The notes below the pieces were generated by a model. That model was given only the letters and a program-made list of their open reading frames with translations, had not been told where the DNA came from and did not search any database. DNA of 64,000 nucleotides, from contig NZ_CP013655.1 in the NCBI RefSeq assembly GCF_001465345.1, forward strand, positions 2,738,102 to 2,802,101, read 5' to 3'. This DNA is from Enterococcus rotai. GTDB lineage: Bacteria > Bacillota > Bacilli > Lactobacillales > Enterococcaceae. This document shows positions 13,396-24,119 of the stretch, one piece after another; position 1 is the stretch's first letter, and each line of letters begins with the position of its first letter. The position numbers were made by a program, and so were the translations under genes.

Positions 13396-13426
13396 TTGCA
13401 TTATAGTGTACTTTAAGTTGTATAAT
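13396..13426 (+). promoter_or_regulatory. MerR-type promoter of aldo/keto reductase with AdhR-like operator
   Basis: TTGCAT, 19-bp spacer, TATAAT. The spacer holds ATTATAG-TGTA-CTTTAAG, an imperfect 7-4-7 inverted repeat matching the operators at 15559 and 17636. A 19-bp spacer is the hallmark of promoters activated by MerR-family proteins. Confidence 0.75.
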
Positions 13427-13464
13427 AAATAATAAACAAGTAGTAGATTGAGAGGATGATAAGA

Positions 13465-14445
13465 ATGGAGTATACGAAATTAGGTAATACTGGACTAGAT
13501 GTTTCAAGAATTTGTTTAGGTGCAATGAGCTTTGGAGACCCTAAAAATTGGATTCATAAATGGGTACTTGAAGAGGAAGATAGTAGACCGCTAATCAAAA
13601 GAGCCCTAGAACTAGGCATAAACTTTTTTGATACTGCCAATGTTTATTCTTTGGGTAGAAGCGAAGAAATTTTAGGGAAAGCGTTGAAGGACTACGCAAA
13701 CCGAGATGAAATTGTACTAGCAACGAAAGTTCACCAAAAAACGTTTGATGGTCCAAATGGACAAGGATTATCAAGAAAAGCGATTATGTCTCAAATTGAT
13801 CAGAGTTTGAAGCGTCTGCAAACAGATTATGTGGATTTATATATCATCCACCGTTGGGATCCTTATACACCAATTGAAGAAACTATGGAAGCACTAAATG
13901 ACGTTGTCAAAGCTGGAAAAGCAAGATATATTGGGGCTTCAGCGATGTATGCTTATCAATTTCAACAAGCAAACAATATAGCAGAAAAGAATGGTTGGGC
14001 AAAATTTGTTTCTATGCAAAACCACTTAAATTTGATTTATCGTGAAGAAGAACGTGAAATGATTCCCTATTGTCTTTCTGAAAAAATTGCACTTACACCT
14101 TATAGTCCAATGGCATCAGGGCGATTAATTCGAAGTGCCACAGAAGCAACCAAACGAAGCACCACTGATGATGCACAAAAAGCTAAATATGATGAAACCG
14201 CGGATAAAGATCAGATGATTATAGATCGCGTTGCTGAATTGGCTGCCAAATATGAGACCAATAAAGTGAATATTGCCTTAGGATGGTTACTACAAAAAAA
14301 TCCAGTAGTTGCACCTGTTATTGGCGCAACAAAAATGAATCATATCGAAACAGCGGTTGGCGCGGTAGATTTTAAATTAAGTCAAGCAGATGTACTTTAT
14401 TTAGAAGAACCTTATATCCCACACAAAGTAGTGGGACATGTCTAA
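13465..14445 (+). CDS. aldo/keto reductase
   Basis: A 326-residue NAD(P)H-dependent oxidoreductase with the AKR barrel signature: INFFDTANVYSLGRSEEILG (Asp and Tyr of the tetrad), the Lys in VLATKV, the His in YIIHRWDP and the C-terminal NPVVAPVIGATKMNHI. It would reduce aldehydes or ketones in the cytosol. The start is ATG 13465 (GAGAGG nine bases upstream). Its promoter carries an AdhR-like box, so it is a likely target of the MerR regulator at 15643, which fits aldehyde detoxification. Confidence 0.92.
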   Translation: MEYTKLGNTGLDVSRICLGAMSFGDPKNWIHKWVLEEEDSRPLIKRALELGINFFDTANVYSLGRSEEILGKALKDYANRDEIVLATKVHQKTFDGPNGQGLSRKAIMSQIDQSLKRLQTDYVDLYIIHRWDPYTPIEETMEALNDVVKAGKARYIGASAMYAYQFQQANNIAEKNGWAKFVSMQNHLNLIYREEEREMIPYCLSEKIALTPYSPMASGRLIRSATEATKRSTTDDAQKAKYDETADKDQMIIDRVAELAAKYETNKVNIALGWLLQKNPVVAPVIGATKMNHIETAVGAVDFKLSQADVLYLEEPYIPHKVVGHV

Positions 14446-14627
14446 AAAAATGAGGCCGAGACAAAAGCGTTTAGCTCCGAGAAATAAGAGGGAATTCACG
14501 AAAATTACTTTTCAAATTTTTGTGAATTTCAGCTTATTTCCGAAGGAGCTGCTTTTTTGTCGCCGTTTATTCGGATTTAGAGCGCGAAACAAAACTTTTT
14601 TTTAGTTTTGTCCCACGCTCATTTTTT
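14444..14627. repeat. long palindromic interspersed repeat acting as bidirectional terminator
   Basis: The outer arms AAAAAATGAG...GACAAAA and TTTTGTC...CTCATTTTTT pair, and nested arms (AGCTCC/GGAGCT, GAAATAAG/CTTATTTC, AATTCAC/GTGAATT) follow inside. The segment fills the gap between the convergent AKR and MBL genes. A shorter relative is at 45937-46000. I recall similar elements dispersed in enterococcal genomes. Confidence 0.8.
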
Positions 14628-14628
14628 G

Positions 14629-15429
14629 CTATTTTCTTAAAATGAAACGATCTCCAGCAGCCATTATCTGGATTCTTTCAGGATTGGTTACTCTATGAAT
14701 CAGATCAGCTGGATTTCCATTGAAAACATTCATATGAGGAGCATCCACTGTTCCCCAATGAGACAAAAGTAAAGCAGCATTTGGATAAGTGTTAGCAAGT
14801 TTAATCGCATTATCTAAGCCAATATGCCATTCGTTATCAGAAAAATCAAAGAGAATCGCATCAGGTTCAGGCATTTCTAGATGGGATGTTAATAACTTGG
14901 AGTCGCCAGGAATCCACATGGTTCCATCTGGTGTTTCAATCCAAAATCCACAAAAGTCCTCTAATTTAAAGACACGATTGTATTTTTTACTTTCATTTTG
15001 CCATAAATGGTCAGCAGGTGTTAATGTTATTTTTAATGGATCTTCTTTAAAAGAAGCATGTATTTCATGACCAAATGCTTCAAACATCATTTTTTCTTTA
15101 ACTAGTCCAGCAACATATTTAGGTGCGTGTAGAGCATTTGTCAGCGGTAGTAATTTTTTTAAGGTTGCTATACTAAAATGATCATTGTCAGCATGGGTGA
15201 TAAGTATACTATCCAGATGCGGCACTTGATCCGTTTTGATTGGCATTTCAATTAACAAAGGCAAATCAAATCCTTCTAATACTGGATCAACCATCATACA
15301 ATAGCCTCTGCTATTTAAAAATATACCTGAATTTCCTAGCCAGCGGATTTCAGTATGATGATTCACTTGAAAGGCTTCTGCGCCAAACGGAATGGTTTTT
15401 GGTGGTGTTGCTTGTGATTGTTCGTTCAT
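14629..15429 (-). CDS. MBL-fold metallohydrolase
   Basis: A 266-residue metallo-beta-lactamase-fold protein of the UlaG/YtnP-like type. The metal motif is ITHADNDHF near residue 77, followed by the conserved Asp in WIPGDSKL near 168 and a late His (LLSHWG). It would hydrolyse a small ester, lactone or phosphodiester in the cytosol. The start is ATG 15429 with GGAG six bases upstream; an in-frame TTG at 15477 is less likely. It is transcribed from a 19-bp-spacer promoter with a near-perfect AdhR-like operator shared with the divergent merR gene. Confidence 0.88.
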   Translation of the reverse strand: MNEQSQATPPKTIPFGAEAFQVNHHTEIRWLGNSGIFLNSRGYCMMVDPVLEGFDLPLLIEMPIKTDQVPHLDSILITHADNDHFSIATLKKLLPLTNALHAPKYVAGLVKEKMMFEAFGHEIHASFKEDPLKITLTPADHLWQNESKKYNRVFKLEDFCGFWIETPDGTMWIPGDSKLLTSHLEMPEPDAILFDFSDNEWHIGLDNAIKLANTYPNAALLLSHWGTVDAPHMNVFNGNPADLIHRVTNPERIQIMAAGDRFILRK

Positions 15430-15470
15430 TATTTTCTCCTGTCCAAGAACATTATTTTGTATAACTATTT

Positions 15471-15518
15471 TTAGCAATAGTAAAAGTTAATCAAATCTTG
15501 CTGTAATGTTAGCGACAA
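15471..15518 (-). CDS. possible 15-codon leader ORF before the MBL gene
   Basis: A consensus AGGAGG lies seven bases before a TTG, which opens a short frame coding MSLTLQQDLINFYYC and then TAA. It sits in the mRNA leader of the MBL gene, whose own start has a separate site. It may be translated as an upstream ORF; equally it could be a chance ORF behind a good Shine-Dalgarno. Function unknown. Confidence 0.3.
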   Translation of the reverse strand: MSLTLQQDLINFYYC

Positions 15519-15549
15519 TTGATAACCTCCTAATGTTGCATCTGTTTAA

Positions 15550-15580
15550 AGTATACACCTTAAAGTGCACTTTAAATCAA
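15550..15580 (-). promoter_or_regulatory. MBL-gene promoter with AdhR-like operator, divergent to merR
   Basis: On the minus strand: TTGATT, 19-bp spacer, TATACT. The spacer holds TTAAAGTGCACTTTAA, a perfect palindrome that forms the 7-4-7 repeat CTTAAAG-TGCA-CTTTAAA (15559-15576). The plus-strand merR promoter (TTTAAA, 17 bp, TAAGAT) overlaps its right edge, so autoregulation is likely. Confidence 0.85.
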
Positions 15581-15642
15581 GTGGAAATACTGGTAAGATA
15601 GAATGACCAAATACTTAAATGATAGAAGAGGGATTGATTACT

Positions 15643-16029
15643 ATGAATATTTCAGAAGTTGCAGCAAAATATGATATGACACCTGCTACGATTCGCTACT
15701 ATGAGAGTCAAGGATTAATGCCTGCAATTACCCGTAACCAATCAGGAATTAGAGATTTTCAAGAAGAAGATTTAATTTGGGTTGAATTTATTAAATGCAT
15801 GAGGGATTCAGGTTTGTCTATTCATTCTCTTTCAAAATATTCAGAATTATATCAAATGGGGGAACAAACGTTGGTCCAAAGAAAAGAGATTTTGGTGAAT
15901 GAATATCAGAAACTTTTAAAGAAACAGGCATTAATTAATGGTACTGTGGCTAAATTAGAGAAGAAAATCGAGGATTATGATCATAAAATCAAAGAGTGTG
16001 AGGAAAATATATTTAAGGAAAAGAACTAG
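15643..16029 (+). CDS. MerR-family regulator, AdhR/NmlR-like
   Basis: A 128-residue protein with an N-terminal winged helix (ISEVAAKYDMTPATIRYYES), a coupling region and a C-terminal coiled coil from residue 80. Cys52 (FIKCMRDSG) is the single thiol in the place where Bacillus subtilis AdhR uses Cys52 to sense reactive aldehydes. As I remember it, the AdhR operator is CTTAAAG-N4-CTTTAAG; that pattern occurs in three local promoters. The start is ATG 15643 after GAGGG. I infer activation of the AKR, MBL and phosphatase genes under aldehyde or electrophile stress. Confidence 0.88.
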   Translation: MNISEVAAKYDMTPATIRYYESQGLMPAITRNQSGIRDFQEEDLIWVEFIKCMRDSGLSIHSLSKYSELYQMGEQTLVQRKEILVNEYQKLLKKQALINGTVAKLEKKIEDYDHKIKECEENIFKEKN

Positions 16030-16056
16030 GCTAGTTTAAACTGGAGGGAAATGAAA

Positions 16057-16950
16057 ATGTATCTTTTTCAAAGAATTGAAGAAGCAGTTTTTAAGCAAAA
16101 TGATGCCCGACGAGTGATTGGCGAATTTATTCTTGAAAATCGTGACCAACTAAAATCTTACTCGATGGAAGAGATTGCCAAGAAAACCTTTACGTCTAAG
16201 CCAACCTTAGTTCGATTTGCGAAATATTTTGGCTATTCGGGTTGGAAAGAATTTATGTATGCTTTTACTCATGAAGTGGCCTATCATGACGACAATGCTT
16301 ACGTAGATGTTGATCCTAACTTTCCTTTTTCAGCTGAACACGATACGTTAGAAATCATTGAAAGTATTGCGACTTTAAAAATTCAGAGTATCAAAGATAC
16401 TGTTTCTTTGATTGCTATAGAAGATCTTAACAAAGCTGCAGAACTTATTCATGGTGCAAATAGCGTTGTGATTTATGGGACGAGTCCAAATTATTATTAC
16501 GGTGAACTGATTAAGAGAAATTTGTTATCGATTCAAAAGAAAGCAATTATGGCCAATTCGGGTGAAAGTGGTATTATCACACAAACAGTGAATAACAAAG
16601 ATTGTGCGATTGTGATTTCTTATTCTGGGAGTAGCTTTGATGACAACCCAACTAGCAATGTAAAATTATTAATGAAAAATTCTGTACCAATCATTAGTAT
16701 CACAAGCGGTGGTGAAAACTATTTAAGGGATTACTCAGATGTTGTTCTTAATATTTCTAGTAAAGAAAAATTGTATTCCAAGATAGCCAATTTTGCGACA
16801 CAGGAATCCATTCTATTTATTCTCGATGCTCTGTTCGCAAAAGTATTTTCACTTGATTATGAAGTCAATAGAAGGAATAAAATTACAAATTCAAAATTAT
16901 TAGAGTCTAAAAGACAAGCAACCTTTAAACAATTATCTGAAAAATTTTGA
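16057..16950 (+). CDS. RpiR-family regulator, probably of the beta-glucoside PTS
   Basis: A 297-residue regulator with an N-terminal RpiR helix-turn-helix (SMEEIAKKTFTSKPTLVRFA near residues 35-55) and a C-terminal SIS domain (VVIYGTSPNYYYGELI, then CAIVISYSGSS, IPIISITSG-like) that binds a phosphosugar. The start is ATG 16057 after GGAGGG; ATG 16051 is too close to the site. It lies upstream of the PTS and 6-phospho-beta-glucosidase genes, so a phosphorylated glucoside is the likely ligand. It follows merR by 27 bases and may be cotranscribed with it. Confidence 0.85.
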   Translation: MYLFQRIEEAVFKQNDARRVIGEFILENRDQLKSYSMEEIAKKTFTSKPTLVRFAKYFGYSGWKEFMYAFTHEVAYHDDNAYVDVDPNFPFSAEHDTLEIIESIATLKIQSIKDTVSLIAIEDLNKAAELIHGANSVVIYGTSPNYYYGELIKRNLLSIQKKAIMANSGESGIITQTVNNKDCAIVISYSGSSFDDNPTSNVKLLMKNSVPIISITSGGENYLRDYSDVVLNISSKEKLYSKIANFATQESILFILDALFAKVFSLDYEVNRRNKITNSKLLESKRQATFKQLSEKF

Positions 16951-16954
16951 TCAT

Positions 16955-16991
16955 AAAAAGCACTTGGATATTTTGGGCCAAGTGCTTTTTA
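16955..16991. terminator. bidirectional terminator
   Basis: AAAAAGCACTTGG / CCAAGTGCTTTTT between the convergent rpiR and phosphatase genes. Confidence 0.92.
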
Positions 16992-17009
16992 CCTGTCTTC
17001 ATAACCAGA

Positions 17010-17606
17010 TTAAAGAATACTTTTTTTACTTGAGGGGTCAATAATGTCAGTGAGGTCAAAATGATATTTTTCATAAGTGTAAATAAAAATGGCACAGTTT
17101 GGCAAATGAATAGGAATTTTTCTATCAGAATGCTTCCAAATAGAGTTTAAAAAGTAAAAACACGCACCATTGTGCGATATTGCCAAAACCTTTTGATGAT
17201 CTTCCTGCTCCATAATCGAATGAAGTGTTTTAATCATTCTATTTTGAACGTCAGAAGCTTTTTCGCCTCCAAATTGTTCATAGAAAGTTTCAAAATTGTG
17301 GGGACCTTTTGGCTGTAGCTCCGAACTTTCTCCCTCAAATCGTCCAAAATTCATTTCTTTCAACCCTTTTTTTCGTTGATAAAAGTGATTGCTGTTTGTA
17401 ATGATTTCCAATGTGTCGCAAGCACGCTCTTGGGTTGATGAGTAGTAATGATCAAAGTGAATTTGATTTTCTTGAAAAAATGTTGCTGCTTGCTTTGCTT
17501 GTTTTTTTCCTTTATTTGTTAATGGGGAATCACATGCACCTTGGATTTTACCCAACTGATTAAAAAGTGTTTCTCCATGACGCATCAGATATAACTGTTT
17601 TTTCAT
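17010..17606 (-). CDS. histidine phosphatase family protein
   Basis: A 198-residue member of the phosphoglycerate-mutase-like superfamily. LYLMRHGETLFN near residue 6 carries the phosphorylated His, LKEMNFGRFEGE is the mid motif, and VLAISHNGACFYF carries the second His. It acts on a phosphorylated metabolite in the cytosol; the substrate is unknown. The start is ATG 17606 after GAGGAGG. The promoter has a 19-bp spacer with the AdhR-like operator, which links it to the MerR regulator. Confidence 0.88.
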   Translation of the reverse strand: MKKQLYLMRHGETLFNQLGKIQGACDSPLTNKGKKQAKQAATFFQENQIHFDHYYSSTQERACDTLEIITNSNHFYQRKKGLKEMNFGRFEGESSELQPKGPHNFETFYEQFGGEKASDVQNRMIKTLHSIMEQEDHQKVLAISHNGACFYFLNSIWKHSDRKIPIHLPNCAIFIYTYEKYHFDLTDIIDPSSKKSIL

Positions 17607-17626
17607 TTGAACACCTCCTCAAGCTC

Positions 17627-17657
17627 ATTATAAATCTTAAAGTGAGCTTTAAGTCAA
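17627..17657 (-). promoter_or_regulatory. histidine phosphatase promoter with AdhR-like operator
   Basis: On the minus strand: TTGACT, 19-bp spacer, TATAAT, with CTTAAAG-TGAG-CTTTAAG at 17636-17653. Both half-sites are the perfect consensus. Confidence 0.87.
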
Positions 17658-17856: not shown

Positions 17857-19704
17857 ATGAGTAAAAAATATGAACAGTTGGCCCAAGAGATTATTGAGAC
17901 GTTAGGTGGAAAGGAAAATATTGCAGATGCCTATCATTGTCAAACACGCCTTCGTTTTAAACTAGTAGATGAACAAAAAGTTGACAAAGAAGGTCTTGGT
18001 GAATTAGAAGGAGTCGCAACTTATTTAGTTAATGCAGGTGTTCATCAGGTTGTCATAGGAACGCATGTGAAAGATGTCTTTGAAGAGATTGAGAAAAAAA
18101 TCGATATTACTGCAAAAAATGAACCATCATCTGAGAAAAAAGGCATATTTAATAGCATTATTGAGTTTGTAGCTGGTACATTCCAGCCAATTATTCCTGC
18201 ATTATCTGGAGCTGGAATGGTTAAAGCTGTTCTAGCATTGTTAGTTGTTTTTAAGGTTGTTTCTGTCGAATCACAAACGTATTATTTATTGAATTTATTT
18301 GCAGATGGCGTGTTTTTCTTCTTACCGATGATCTTAGCTTTTACAGTTGCTCAAAAATTGAGATGCAATCCTATCTTGGCAGCATCTGTCGCAGCAATGA
18401 TGATGCATCCAAATTGGGGGGTATTAGTCACAGCAGGAGAGCCAGTTAAATTCTTTGATCTTATTCCTTTTACCTTAGCTACTTATACTGGTTCTGTTAT
18501 TCCGATTCTTTTAATTATTTTCGTTCAGTCTTATGTAGAGAAATTTCTCAATCGTGTGATACCAAAATCAGTTGAATTAGTCTTTGTACCAATGTTGACT
18601 TTTCTAATTATGGGAACTTTGGCGTTTTCAGTACTAGGTCCGATTGGCAGTATTATTGGTGGTTATCTGGCAGCATTCTTTACGTTTTTAAGTGTAAATG
18701 CTAGTTGGGTACCAGCAGTCTTGATCGGTGGTTTTCTGCCGATTATGGTGATGTTTGGTCTTCACAATGGTGTTGCTCCTTTAGGGGTGATGCAAATGGC
18801 AGAGCTTGGTTATGATAGTATTTTTGGGCCAGGCTGTGTTTGCTCAAATATTGCTCAAGCAACGGCTTCTGCGGTAGTTGCATTTAGAACAAAAGATAAA
18901 AAATTGAAGCAATTAGCTGTTTAGGGTTCAATTACTGCATACATGGGGATTACTGAACCAACATTATATGGTGTGAATTTACCTAAAAAATACCCGTTGA
19001 TTGCAGCTATGATTGGTGGTGGAGCAGGTGGTTTATATGCTGGATTAACGAATACACATCGCTTTGCAACAGGATCATCTGGTTTACCTGCAATTTTACT
19101 TTATATTGGTGATAATTCGATGGCTTTTTTCTGGAATATTATGATTGCTTTGATCATTTCAGCAGTCGTATCAGCCGTATTAACCTATGTGTTAAGTTTT
19201 AAATTTGAAAAAGAAGTAACAGTACCATCAGTTAAAGAAATTATTTTAGAGGATACAATAATTGCTAATCCTATTAAAGGGAATGTCATGTCCTTGAGTG
19301 AAGTACAAGATGGCGCTTTTGCATCGGAGGCTCTTGGTAAAGGGTTTGCTATTGAGCCAATAGAAGGAAAAGTAATTGCACCATTTAATGGGAAAATCGA
19401 GGCTATTTTTCCAACAAAACATGCAATTGGACTTGTGTCGGATACTGGAATAGAACTTTTGATTCATGTAGGTTTAAATACTGTAGAGTTAAAAGGTCAA
19501 TATTTTGATACTTTGGTAGAGTCGGGGCAAACAGTAAAAAAAGGGCAGGTAATCCTAAATTTTGATTTGGAAAAAATAAGAGAAGCTGGCTATGAAACGC
19601 AAGTGCCAGTTGTGATAACTAATACCCCTCAATACTCTTCAATTGAATTAACAACTAAAGGACAATTAGCAAATAACGAAGAAGTATTGATCGTTAAAGT
19701 GTAA
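17857..19704 (+). pseudogene. bglP: beta-glucoside PTS EIIBCA, interrupted by an in-frame TAG
   Basis: The frame codes a complete EIIBCA permease of about 615 codons except for TAG at codon 356 (18922-18924). EIIB (1-85) has the phosphorylatable Cys28 in YHCQTRLRF; EIIC (about 100-450) continues after the stop with YMGITEPTLYGVN; EIIA (about 475-615) has its His in LLIHVGLN. The stop replaces a residue that is Ser in remembered homologues (LAL-S-AGIT). The second half has no ribosome site, so without read-through the transporter is lost. It could also be a sequencing error. The pair with the GH1 gene implies import of beta-glucosides as 6-phosphates. Confidence 0.88.
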
Positions 19705-19756: not shown

Positions 19757-21229
<1,473 letters not shown>

Positions 21230-21310: not shown

Positions 21311-21353
21311 ATACAACAATAGCTTGCGCTCGTTGTGCCATTGTTGTATTATT
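21311..21353. terminator. second inverted repeat, between convergent genes
   Basis: ATACAACAAT / ATTGTTGTAT arms with a GC-rich loop, overlapping the 3' end of the lysR gene; likely bidirectional. Confidence 0.6.
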
Positions 21354-22218
21354 TTGCATTCTTTAACAAACGCAGAAACTCTTTTGAAGCATTGGAAAAA
21401 ATTTGATTCTTTTTCCAAACAATATTGATGTTTGCAGTCAAGGATGGTGAAAAAGGAATAAACGTTAGGGAGGTATCGGCGGTATTCACAATTCCATCAA
21501 TGCAAAGTGCACTAGCAACACCTTGTTTTACTAGCAAAGAGGCATTATAAAGAAGATTATAGGTTCCAATGATAGTAAAGTGTTCTATATTTCCTCCAAG
21601 CCACTCTGATAGTTGATTATCAACTAAAGATTGATTGGAAATCAGTAGAGGGGTATGCAAGAGATCTTTTGGTTGGACTGTTGGTTTTTCAGCTAGAGGA
21701 TGTGATTTATTTACTAGAATGCCCCAGCTATCAAACAAAGGTAAGCGGATATATTCATATTTTTGTTTTTCAACAGGATCAATCACCAAACCAAAATCTA
21801 ACAGACCTTTATCAATTTTTTCTAAAACATCATCAGCATTTCCACTATAAAGATGAATAGTGATTTCTGGATGGTGTTCTCTTAATTCTTCCAACAGTTT
21901 TCCAATAAATTCAAAAGCGCTCGTTTCACCGCCTCCAATCGTTATTTCTCCACTGATTACATCATTTTTGGTAAGATTTGAGGTTGTTGCTTCAACTAAC
22001 GATAGAATTTCTTTTCCTCTATTCATTAAGTAGATACCCTCTTCTGTTAATGAGATAGCTCGATTTCCACGAATAAATAATGTAACACCAAGCTCGTCTT
22101 CTAATTCTTTTAATTGTTTTGAAAGTGTTGGCTGAGAGAGGTTTAAAACTTCAGCCGCTTTACTAATAGTTTTTTCTCTTGCTACTGCTAAAAAATACGT
22201 TAAGACACGAAGTTCCAT
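21349..22218 (-). CDS. LysR-family transcriptional regulator
   Basis: A 289-residue protein with the LysR winged helix (AVAREKTISKAAEVLNLSQPTLSKQLKELE, residues 12-41, written here in part from the frame) and a periplasmic-binding-like co-inducer domain from residue 90. It is divergent from the acetyltransferase / cyclophilin-like / SDR genes, the usual arrangement for a LysR protein and its targets. The start is ATG 22218 after GGAAGGAGTG. The effector is unknown. Confidence 0.9.
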   Translation of the reverse strand: MELRVLTYFLAVAREKTISKAAEVLNLSQPTLSKQLKELEDELGVTLFIRGNRAISLTEEGIYLMNRGKEILSLVEATTSNLTKNDVISGEITIGGGETSAFEFIGKLLEELREHHPEITIHLYSGNADDVLEKIDKGLLDFGLVIDPVEKQKYEYIRLPLFDSWGILVNKSHPLAEKPTVQPKDLLHTPLLISNQSLVDNQLSEWLGGNIEHFTIIGTYNLLYNASLLVKQGVASALCIDGIVNTADTSLTFIPFSPSLTANINIVWKKNQIFSNASKEFLRLLKNAK

Positions 22219-22333
22219 TTTAGCACTCCTTCCTATAACTTTTACGAATAGTTAGCTATGTTTTATTGGTATTAGTTAAGTATAAACGATTCAGGTATAA
22301 TTTGGATAGTAGAAACGAAAGGATGGAATAAAA

Positions 22334-22912
22334 ATGCTAAATAGTGAGCTGCAAAAGAAAATTGTTGGCAAAGAAATTTTAAAGGATTCTCCTTTATTTG
22401 AAGAAATTCATTACGCAAAACATGAAAACGAACAATTGATAATGAAACTAAATGCGCAGTATTATCCGAATAAAGAGGTTTTAGCACTTTTGGAGGAAAT
22501 TACGGGGAAAACAATCGATAGCTCAGTAAAAATTTCCCAGCCTTTTTATAGTGATTTTGGCAAGCATATCACATTTGGAAAAGAAATATTTATTAACCAA
22601 AACGTGACTTTCGTAGATTTAGGTGGTATTACGATCGAAGACCAGGTTTTGATTGGTCCTGGTTCTAGATTGGTCACTGTTAACCATTTAGTTTCTCCTA
22701 AAAATAGACGGGGAATCAAAGTAGAGCCGATTCATATTAAGCAGAATGCTTGGCTTGGGGCAAATGTCACAGTCTTGCCTGGGGTTACGATTGGAGAGAA
22801 TTCGATTGTTGCTGCTGATTCAACGGTGACAAAAGACGTGCCTGATAATGTGATTGTAGCAGGAAGCCCAGCTAAAGTGGTTCGGAAAATTGAAGAAGAA
22901 AAGAGAACATAA
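22334..22912 (+). CDS. sugar O-acetyltransferase, left-handed beta-helix type
   Basis: A 192-residue maltose/galactoside acetyltransferase-like protein. It has an N-terminal helical cap, hexapeptide repeats (VLIGPGSRLVTVNH, AWLGANVTVLPGVTIGENS) and the ending VPDNVIVAGSPAKVVRKI. His in VNHLV is the expected catalytic base. It acetylates a sugar or related acceptor from acetyl-CoA; the acceptor is unknown. The start is ATG 22334 after GAAAGGATGG. It is the first gene of a probable LysR-controlled operon and overlaps the next ORF. Confidence 0.88.
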   Translation: MLNSELQKKIVGKEILKDSPLFEEIHYAKHENEQLIMKLNAQYYPNKEVLALLEEITGKTIDSSVKISQPFYSDFGKHITFGKEIFINQNVTFVDLGGITIEDQVLIGPGSRLVTVNHLVSPKNRRGIKVEPIHIKQNAWLGANVTVLPGVTIGENSIVAADSTVTKDVPDNVIVAGSPAKVVRKIEEEKRT

Positions 22913-23351
22913 AATAATATTCGCTATTCTTTGCTTATTACTTCTAGTTGTAAAGAGGGGGGAGGGTGATGTGATTACGTCTTATATCAATGAAAGTGAA
23001 ACGGTGTCTACAATAAATGGCATAATTGAAAACAAACGATTTCATATTGAGCTAACACCCAATTCAGCAACGAAAAAAATGAGAGAACACCTTCCACTAA
23101 ACATAAGGATGGCTGATTTAAATGGTAATGAAAAATATGCGTATCTATTAGAACATTTACCGACACAAAGAGAACAGGTTAGAAGAATAGAAAAGGGCGA
23201 TGTGATGCTTTTTGGCTCCAACTGTTTAGTCATCTTTTATCAAACATTTTCTACCAATTATTCATATACTAAAATAGGAAAAATAAAAGAAGTAGAACAA
23301 CTTGATTTCATGTTAGAAACAGATGCAGTCAATGTCCTATTGACACCATAA
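22890..23351 (+). CDS. cyclophilin-like domain protein
   Basis: The C-terminal 115 residues form the small cyclophilin-like fold found in bacterial proteins of this kind: NIRMADLNGNEKYAYL, then GDVMLFGSNCLVIFYQTF, then SYTKIGKI. The N-terminus is uncertain. A TTG at 22890 gives a hydrophobic lead (IIFAILCLLLLVV) with no clear lipobox, while a GTG at 22972 follows a striking GGGGGGAGGG and would give a cytosolic 126-residue form. Homologues I recall are lipoproteins, so a small indel in the G-rich stretch may have damaged the export signal. It is cotranscribed with its neighbours. Confidence 0.72.
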   Translation: MKKKREHKIIFAILCLLLLVVKRGEGDVITSYINESETVSTINGIIENKRFHIELTPNSATKKMREHLPLNIRMADLNGNEKYAYLLEHLPTQREQVRRIEKGDVMLFGSNCLVIFYQTFSTNYSYTKIGKIKEVEQLDFMLETDAVNVLLTP

Positions 23352-23372
23352 AAATGAAAAGGAGCAAGACAG

Positions 23373-24119
23373 ATGGCGATTAAAGATAAAGTAGTAGTTA
23401 TTACAGGAGCTTCATCAGGAATTGGAGAGGCAACTGCGATGTTGTTAGCCGAAAAAGGAGCAAAACTGGTACTAGCAGCACGAAGAAAAGAAAAATTAGA
23501 ATCAATTGTTGAAAAAATCAAAGAAAAATCTGGTGATGCAGTATATTTAGTCACGGATGTAACGAAGAGAAAAGATAATCAAAACTTGGTAGATTTCGCT
23601 ATTGAAACGTATGGGAAGGTAGATGTTCTCTTTTTAAATGCTGGTATTATGCCAAATTCGCCCTTGTCCGCACTTAAGGAAGAAGAATGGGACCAAATGA
23701 TTGATATAAACATTAAAGGAGTTCTCAATGGGCTTGCAGCTGTACTTCCATTGTTTATCGAACAAAGATCAGGACATGTGATTACAACATCCTCCGTTGC
23801 GGGGCTGAAAGCCTACCCAGGAGGTGCTGTTTATGGCGCGACTAAATGGGCAGTTCGCGATTTAATGGAAGTATTGCGAATGGAATCGGCACAAGAGGGA
23901 ACGAATATCCGAACAGCTACAATCTATCCAGCAGCAATTAAAACAGAATTACTGGATAAAATTACAGACCAAAAAACTGCCGCAGGAATGACTGATTTAT
24001 ATGATAGATATGGTATTTCCCCTAAACACGTGGCAAACATTGTTGCTTATGCGATTGAACAACCTGAAGAGGTTACGATAAATGAATTTACAGTAGGACC
24101 AACAAGTCAACCTTGGTGA
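23373..24119 (+). CDS. short-chain dehydrogenase/reductase
   Basis: A 248-residue classical SDR: the nucleotide motif TGASSGIG at residues 12-19, LNAGIMP near 90, and catalytic Ser...YGATK near 155-160. It reduces or oxidises a small carbonyl/alcohol with NAD(P). The start is ATG 23373 after AAAAGGAGC, 21 bases behind the cyclophilin-like gene. With the acetyltransferase and LysR gene it forms a compact stress- or metabolite-responsive cluster often seen with SDRs. The substrate is not predictable. Confidence 0.92.
   Translation: MAIKDKVVVITGASSGIGEATAMLLAEKGAKLVLAARRKEKLESIVEKIKEKSGDAVYLVTDVTKRKDNQNLVDFAIETYGKVDVLFLNAGIMPNSPLSALKEEEWDQMIDINIKGVLNGLAAVLPLFIEQRSGHVITTSSVAGLKAYPGGAVYGATKWAVRDLMEVLRMESAQEGTNIRTATIYPAAIKTELLDKITDQKTAAGMTDLYDRYGISPKHVANIVAYAIEQPEEVTINEFTVGPTSQPW

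Follow-up and report, generated by a model that had tools for sequence, protein, structure and literature searches.

A probable AdhR-type electrophile regulon linked to a beta-glucoside locus in Enterococcus rotai

Proteins of the MerR family activate promoters whose spacers are 19-20 bp long, and they do so through untwisting of the DNA, as described in an extract of PMC5045206. Among the known members, AdhR (YraB) of Bacillus subtilis responds to methylglyoxal and formaldehyde; its induction by formaldehyde needs Cys52, and its regulon includes yraC, which encodes a carboxymuconolactone-decarboxylase-like protein (CMD), according to an extract of PMC4776306. Here we analysed 64,000 nucleotides of Enterococcus rotai (contig NZ_CP013655.1, positions 2,738,102 to 2,802,101; hereafter the window), which carry a MerR gene of the AdhR clade and three promoters, P1, P2 and P3, associated with genes for an aldo/keto reductase (AKR), a metallo-beta-lactamase (MBL)-fold hydrolase and a histidine phosphatase (HP). 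These are probably MerR-type promoters of one small AdhR-type electrophile regulon, which would serve for detoxification within a beta-glucoside module that can be transferred. The locus is best described as a conserved AdhR-type regulon with a distinctive tie to beta-glucoside use, and we recognised no account of the cassette among the literature matches listed.

The initial annotation had proposed three promoters with 19-bp spacers, each holding a 7-4-7 inverted repeat. All three 31-bp elements were found where it had placed them, and the coordinates, strands and spacers were all borne out (Table 1). The operators had also been called identical, which they are not, since they show two (P1), one (P2) and no (P3) mismatches to CTTAAAG-N4-CTTTAAG. 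The distance between the -35 box and the operator centre is 7.5 bp by our own count, similar to the 7-8 bp that the extract of PMC5045206 states for metal-type MerR subfamilies. A candidate merR promoter, found by eye (TTTAAA-17-TAAGAT), overlaps the P2 operator, from which autoregulation might be guessed; the stretch is alike in the window and in three relatives (L147, L148 and L067).

Table 1. Promoters and genes of the locus, with positions in the window
Feature	Position	Strand	Details
P1	13396-13426	+	-35 TTGCAT, 19-bp spacer, operator ATTATAG-TGTA-CTTTAAG, -10 TATAAT; upstream of AKR
AKR, 326 aa	13465..14445	+	Pfam PF00248, 257.7 bits
MBL-fold hydrolase (Lactamase_B_2), 266 aa	14629..15429	-	H-x-D-x-D-H motif; library matches, aligned with 12 relatives
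CMD (YraC-like) gene remnant	15450..15530	-	alignment to relative L147
P2	15550-15580	-	-35 TTGATT, 19-bp spacer, operator TTTAAAG-TGCA-CTTTAAG, -10 TATACT; through CMD remnant into MBL
MerR, AdhR clade, Cys52	15643..16029	+	Pfam MerR_1, tree, alignment
RpiR-family regulator (HTH_6 and SIS)	16051..16950	+	21 bp after merR, same strand
HP (branch 1), 198 aa	17010..17606	-	Pfam PF00300, 134.7 bits
P3	17627-17657	-	-35 TTGACT, 19-bp spacer, operator CTTAAAG-CTCA-CTTTAAG, -10 TATAAT; upstream of HP
Beta-glucoside phosphotransferase system (PTS) EIIBCA gene	17857..19704	+	relative L147 679.4 bits against TIGR01995 cut-off of 614.7
6-phospho-beta-glucosidase-like protein of glycoside hydrolase family 1 (GH1) type	19781..21229	+	named by eye from sequence and PTS context

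The complete promoter and operator pattern, at up to three mismatches, occurs three times in the window against 0.01 expected, and none of 100 shuffled sequences reached three; the pattern was written from the three sites themselves, so that the value of 0.01 describes how unusual the set is and is not a blind test. The whole-genome scan suggested by the initial annotation revealed five such matches in 3.75 Mb against none for the reversed control. Four of them have 0-2 mismatches, and the fifth, at 1369217, has three. The fourth good match is some 25 kb away from the window and precedes the gene of an AKR paralogue (AKR2), which has a MerR paralogue as its neighbour. Exact cores are found five times in the genome, and by eye only the two in the window have both the -35 and the -10 box in register; two of the remaining three are inside stop-to-stop frames of more than 400 codons. 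A sigma-70 scan of the region, which covered spacers of 16-18 bp, gave 22 matches against 18.5 expected, with no excess. The palindrome on its own is not enriched: at up to three mismatches it is found eight times in the window against 7.35 expected, which is not significant, and its core with up to one mismatch occurs at 44 places in the genome against 57 for the reversed control. The bare-palindrome scans were consequently dropped as evidence. This chance-level frequency is what could be cited in favour of P1-P3 being accidental AT-rich, promoter-like sequence; against such an accident stand the expectation for the full pattern, the 78 matches against one in the family and an AKR site that is kept where its upstream flank is not, and we consider it highly improbable. 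The more independent support comes from the matches in related genomes and from the conservation of the sites.

The survey of the pattern at up to two mismatches covered 105 genomes of the family, the source genome included, and gave 78 matches (table sum) in 45 genomes, against one for the reversed pattern. After de-duplication 76 distinct sites were left, and for 75 of them an open reading frame (ORF) of 60 aa or more begins no further than 260 bp downstream. The start lies within 60 bp in 66 of the 75, by our own count without a control set and with an ORF picker that prefers an ATG with a ribosome-binding-like stretch. The downstream proteins were named by similarity to the window proteins, by Pfam for some representatives and otherwise by eye. 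They comprise 30 AKRs, seven HPs, seven DXS/transketolase-like proteins, four short-chain dehydrogenases/reductases (SDRs), three CMDs, three zinc alcohol dehydrogenases (ADHs) and one AdhA-like ADH, three MerR proteins, two MBLs and 17 others in groups of one to three, so that AKR, SDR or ADH make up 38 of the 75. Other genomes thus also have AKR, HP and, less often, MBL genes behind promoters of this pattern, in agreement with the three outputs first proposed.

Two other groups of genes came to light in these scans. The DXS/transketolase-like genes, found at seven of the 76 sites (L237, L238, L267, L272, L280, L289 and L291; Pfam on one), may belong to MerR electrophile regulons without having been recognised as such. 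A variant motif, TTGACTTAAAGTWAAGGTTAAG, also with a 19-bp spacer, lies before two aminotransferase-like genes and one ABC-transporter-like gene, as judged by eye (L282, L283 and L284), and perhaps reflects a related MerR that uses another half-site.

Comparison of the sites with their surroundings indicated that, in three relatives, 26-28 of the 31 bases of P1 are kept, whereas the 80 bp upstream keep only 25-29, about the level of random sequence. At P2 and P3, conservation in the closest relatives extends from the sites into their flanks. The Isobaculum P2 site keeps 30 of 31 bases, with 37 of 80 in the flank, and its P3 site keeps 26 of 31, including both complete half-sites, with 65 of 80 in the flank. 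P2 is found between the local merR gene and the divergent neighbour in four relatives (L147, L148, L067 and L074).

The MerR protein of the window has the winged-helix domain of the family (56 bits against a Pfam MerR_1 cut-off of 21.6), and Cys52, named by the initial annotation, is confirmed by the sequence and the alignment column provided that translation starts at the ATG at 15643. In a tree built by a quick method (LG+G4, no bootstrap, midpoint root) from 66 of 141 MerR sequences, with the window protein counted twice, it falls in a group of 23 rows with AdhR of Bacillus mojavensis (SH-aLRT 97). The B. mojavensis protein (L090) was taken to be AdhR because adhA-like and yraA-like genes lie next to its own, and sites of the same pattern precede adhR (one mismatch) and adhA (two mismatches) at that locus. 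The AdhR operator CTTAAAG-N4-CTTTAAG named in the initial annotation is based here on this locus. Cys52 is present in 15 of the 16 distinct sequences with at least 60% identity (the window's own included), in 12 of 13 MerR sequences with 50-60% and in all 54 with 45-50%. Membership in the NmlR equivalog was rejected, given 117.3 bits against the NCBIfam cut-off of 175; the B. mojavensis AdhR is also below this cut-off (147.5 bits). The tree, Cys52, the form of the operator, the 19-bp spacers and the pattern at B. mojavensis adhR and adhA together uphold the proposal of an AdhR-type MerR.

The frames of AKR, MBL, MerR and HP are all open in the window. Among solved structures, the best match of the AKR is DepB (8hwn) and those of the HP are 1ebb and 1h2e, both titled 'PHOSPHATASE'. 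In profile searches the MBL gave weak matches, namely CmlA (E 2.7e-5, limited to the N-terminal part), the isothiocyanate hydrolase SaxA (0.002) and UPF0173 TM_1162 (0.012), and a single-sequence search of the PDB found nothing at E<=0.001. The canonical motif of MBL proteins is HxHxDH, and Asp replaces its second His in all 13 aligned sequences. These remote matches are a lead towards an electrophile hydrolase and not an assignment. In a search of PHROGs no match was found for the MBL, and HP and MerR matched families of unknown function. The MBL had been presented as the P2 output, and this needs amending: in L147, L148 and L067, P2 drives an intact 105-aa CMD gene adjoining it and then MBL, while in the window about 250 bp have been deleted from within the CMD gene and only its two ends are left between P2 and MBL. 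The L147 CMD scores 74.8 bits in Pfam, and the L148 and L067 proteins are alike. Between the convergent AKR and MBL genes (14446-14640) there is a long and very stable hairpin (-66.9 kcal/mol, z -5.9), whose start matches nowhere else in the window; it may represent a repeat element or act as a terminator in both directions.

The initial annotation also needs amending in that the regulon is embedded in an RpiR-PTS-GH1 beta-glucoside module and in that a fourth site of this form lies beyond the window. The order is merR, rpiR, the divergent HP gene and then the beta-glucoside PTS and GH1-like genes, and the latter is beside the PTS gene in relatives too; merR and rpiR are probably co-transcribed. 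Matches to rpiR at E<=1e-70 were found in 22 of the 105 genomes, and the 19 with at least 60% identity were kept, the weaker ones being dropped. In 16 of these 19 loci, AKR (at least 76% identity), HP (any homologue at E<=1e-35), MBL or merR is found within 10 kb. Among genomes with rpiR, 10 of the 11 MBL matches are within 10 kb of it, and the eleventh, in G015, ends about 0.2 kb from a contig end. In 15 of 18 cases no more than 3 kb separates merR from AKR, and in eight of 18 merR comes directly before rpiR on the same strand. The HP and MBL genes are paired on one strand in four genomes (G015, G018, G079 and G092), and HP is preceded there by -35 and -10 boxes 19 bp apart, also in cases of a drifted repeat. 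In G092, which is outside the set of 19, MBL likewise has PTS and GH1 genes nearby and adjoins an rpiR that is broken up over two frames. At two loci (L213 and L214), GH1 is followed by HP and AKR, all on one strand.

Between the window and Isobaculum melis, a species filed under Carnobacteriaceae, seven proteins of the cassette share 87-97% identity (PTS over the first 355 residues only), against 74% for IleS, the one housekeeping protein compared; IleS of the close relatives G004 and G014 is 97% identical. This difference points to a block that most likely moved as a unit, and, judged by these similarities, the exchange was probably between Enterococcus and Isobaculum.

Besides the chance frequency of the bare palindrome, several observations weigh against a single regulon of this kind. 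The Isobaculum AKR promoter has no site within five mismatches. One MerR relative with 69% identity (L202, from G029) has Tyr at the position of Cys52. Four genomes (G006, G015, G016 and G020) keep the AKR1 site, the type to which P1 belongs, with 0-2 mismatches and without an AdhR-type merR (E<=1e-40). None of AKR, HP, MBL and merR is within 10 kb of rpiR in three of the 19 loci (G015, G090 and G100), and in G068 and G070 the MBL of the glucoside locus has no upstream site within four mismatches and no AdhR-type merR. Finally, the PTS gene of the window carries an in-frame TAG at 18922-18924, where the frame of about 614 aa is unbroken in the six relatives read, and given this stop the beta-glucoside module may be decaying in the source strain. 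Taken with the loss of CMD and the state of the G014 locus, in which no HP was found and merR is interrupted, the stop may mean that some lineages have a partly decayed regulon, although in the window the three promoters and the frames of AKR, MBL, MerR and HP are open.

One regulator for all three sites, as held by the initial annotation, is likely, but the AKR sites kept without an AdhR-type merR may be used by another MerR, and they weaken the strict form of this proposal. Nine MerR matches were found in the genome, and in the paralogue next to AKR2 the position of Cys52 is occupied by Gln. TTAGAG is found in 10 of 11 AKR2-type operators and TTAAAG in 11 of 12 AKR1-type operators, the twelfth being the TTATAG of the window (Fisher p ~1e-5, with relatedness not corrected), a difference consistent with separate specificities. 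It is unlikely, though a case to be reckoned with, that the operators are real and used mainly by another paralogue, for example one 73 kb away that has no Cys52, so that the local MerR would be one of several overlapping regulators. The nine matches, the nearly identical operator at the AKR2 promoter and the four genomes named above would fit such overlap, which is opposed by the difference between the two operator types and by the position of P2 between the local merR gene and its divergent neighbour. Other MerR genes were seen beside the same enzymes: that of L202 adjoins an AKR gene with a three-mismatch site (L236), and in the genome of E. rotai itself (793433-794390, L246) a second HP, 49% identical, adjoins another MerR paralogue, an arrangement of HP and MerR neighbours also present in G002 and G006.

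With the local MerR as the regulator, P1-P3 would work by analogy with the characterised members of the family. The Cys52 protein would sit on the pseudo-palindrome within the over-long 19-bp spacer, and reaction of Cys52 with a reactive carbonyl or another electrophile would lead to untwisting of the DNA, so that RNA polymerase could use the -35 and -10 boxes. The outputs expected to be raised together are AKR, MBL (plus the YraC-like CMD in relatives) and HP, and the RpiR protein probably controls the beta-glucoside PTS and the 6-phospho-beta-glucosidase. The glucoside linkage points to a glycoside aglycone as the electrophile or as the precursor of it, the most likely candidate being a reactive aglycone or carbonyl from glycoside breakdown. 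We tentatively propose, as a possibility short of probable, a self-protecting module for glycoside use: the aglycone freed by the 6-phospho-beta-glucosidase would be the signal for a Cys52 MerR co-transcribed with the sugar regulator, and would induce the proteins that destroy it, namely AKR, CMD, a new MBL hydrolase and the phosphatase, the unit being passed between families of lactic acid bacteria.

It is also conceivable, and again somewhat less than probable, that the electrophile regulon serves general methylglyoxal or formaldehyde sensing and is functionally unrelated to the beta-glucoside genes, their linkage being a by-product of shared horizontal transfer. The response of B. subtilis AdhR to these two aldehydes (extract of PMC4776306) agrees with general sensing, as do the 10 of 18 family merR matches that have no rpiR orthologue within 10 kb (eight have one) and several fetched loci with AKR-merR pairs and no glucoside genes. 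A functional tie is favoured by the presence of MBL in the glucoside locus even without an AdhR-type merR (G006, G018, G033, G068 and G070), by the HP and AKR genes placed directly after GH1 in L213 and L214, and by the merR genes immediately before rpiR in eight of 18 cases.

Downstream of the GH1 gene, the window has a LysR gene, an acetyltransferase gene, a small ORF and an SDR gene (21349-24119, by eye). This block is directly upstream of AKR in L147; for L067, only the LysR and acetyltransferase genes are listed at that place. Four SDR genes in other genomes are under the operator pattern.

An electrophile regulon tied to glucoside use would take the AdhR/NmlR type beyond general aldehydes, to a mobile module for sugar use to which it is linked, and would name the HP and MBL enzyme families as likely members of the electrophile response. 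It would also provide a short operator pattern for predicting regulon members in Enterococcaceae at almost no background (78 against 1). If the aglycone proposal is true, it would explain how these bacteria can use plant aryl-glucosides without self-poisoning.

Compared with known systems, the locus shares with the B. subtilis AdhR regulon the MerR clade, Cys52, the operator pattern seen at adhR and adhA of B. mojavensis and, in close relatives, a CMD (YraC) target. It differs in its targets, which are AKR, MBL and HP and not the thiol-dependent dehydrogenase AdhA and the DJ-1-like YraA, and in its linkage to rpiR, PTS and GH1 genes; AdhA and YraA are not among the genes behind the four good genome sites (AKR, MBL, HP and AKR2), the weaker sites not having been followed. 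The NmlR regulons of Neisseria, Haemophilus and pneumococcus are alike in having a MerR of this clade with an absolutely conserved Cys (extract of PMC4776306), whereas the window MerR falls below the NCBIfam NmlR cut-off and no adhC-estD is present at the locus. The MBL has weak profile similarity to SaxA, CmlA and UPF0173 but is remote from them, with a partial match to CmlA and Asp for the second His of HxHxDH. The locus resembles beta-glucoside PTS operons with a 6-phospho-beta-glucosidase in the GH1-like gene and, in relative L147, in an EIIBCA of TIGR01995 type, although with the in-frame TAG the EIIBCA of the window is not complete; it differs from them in its RpiR-type regulator and in the electrophile regulon attached to it.

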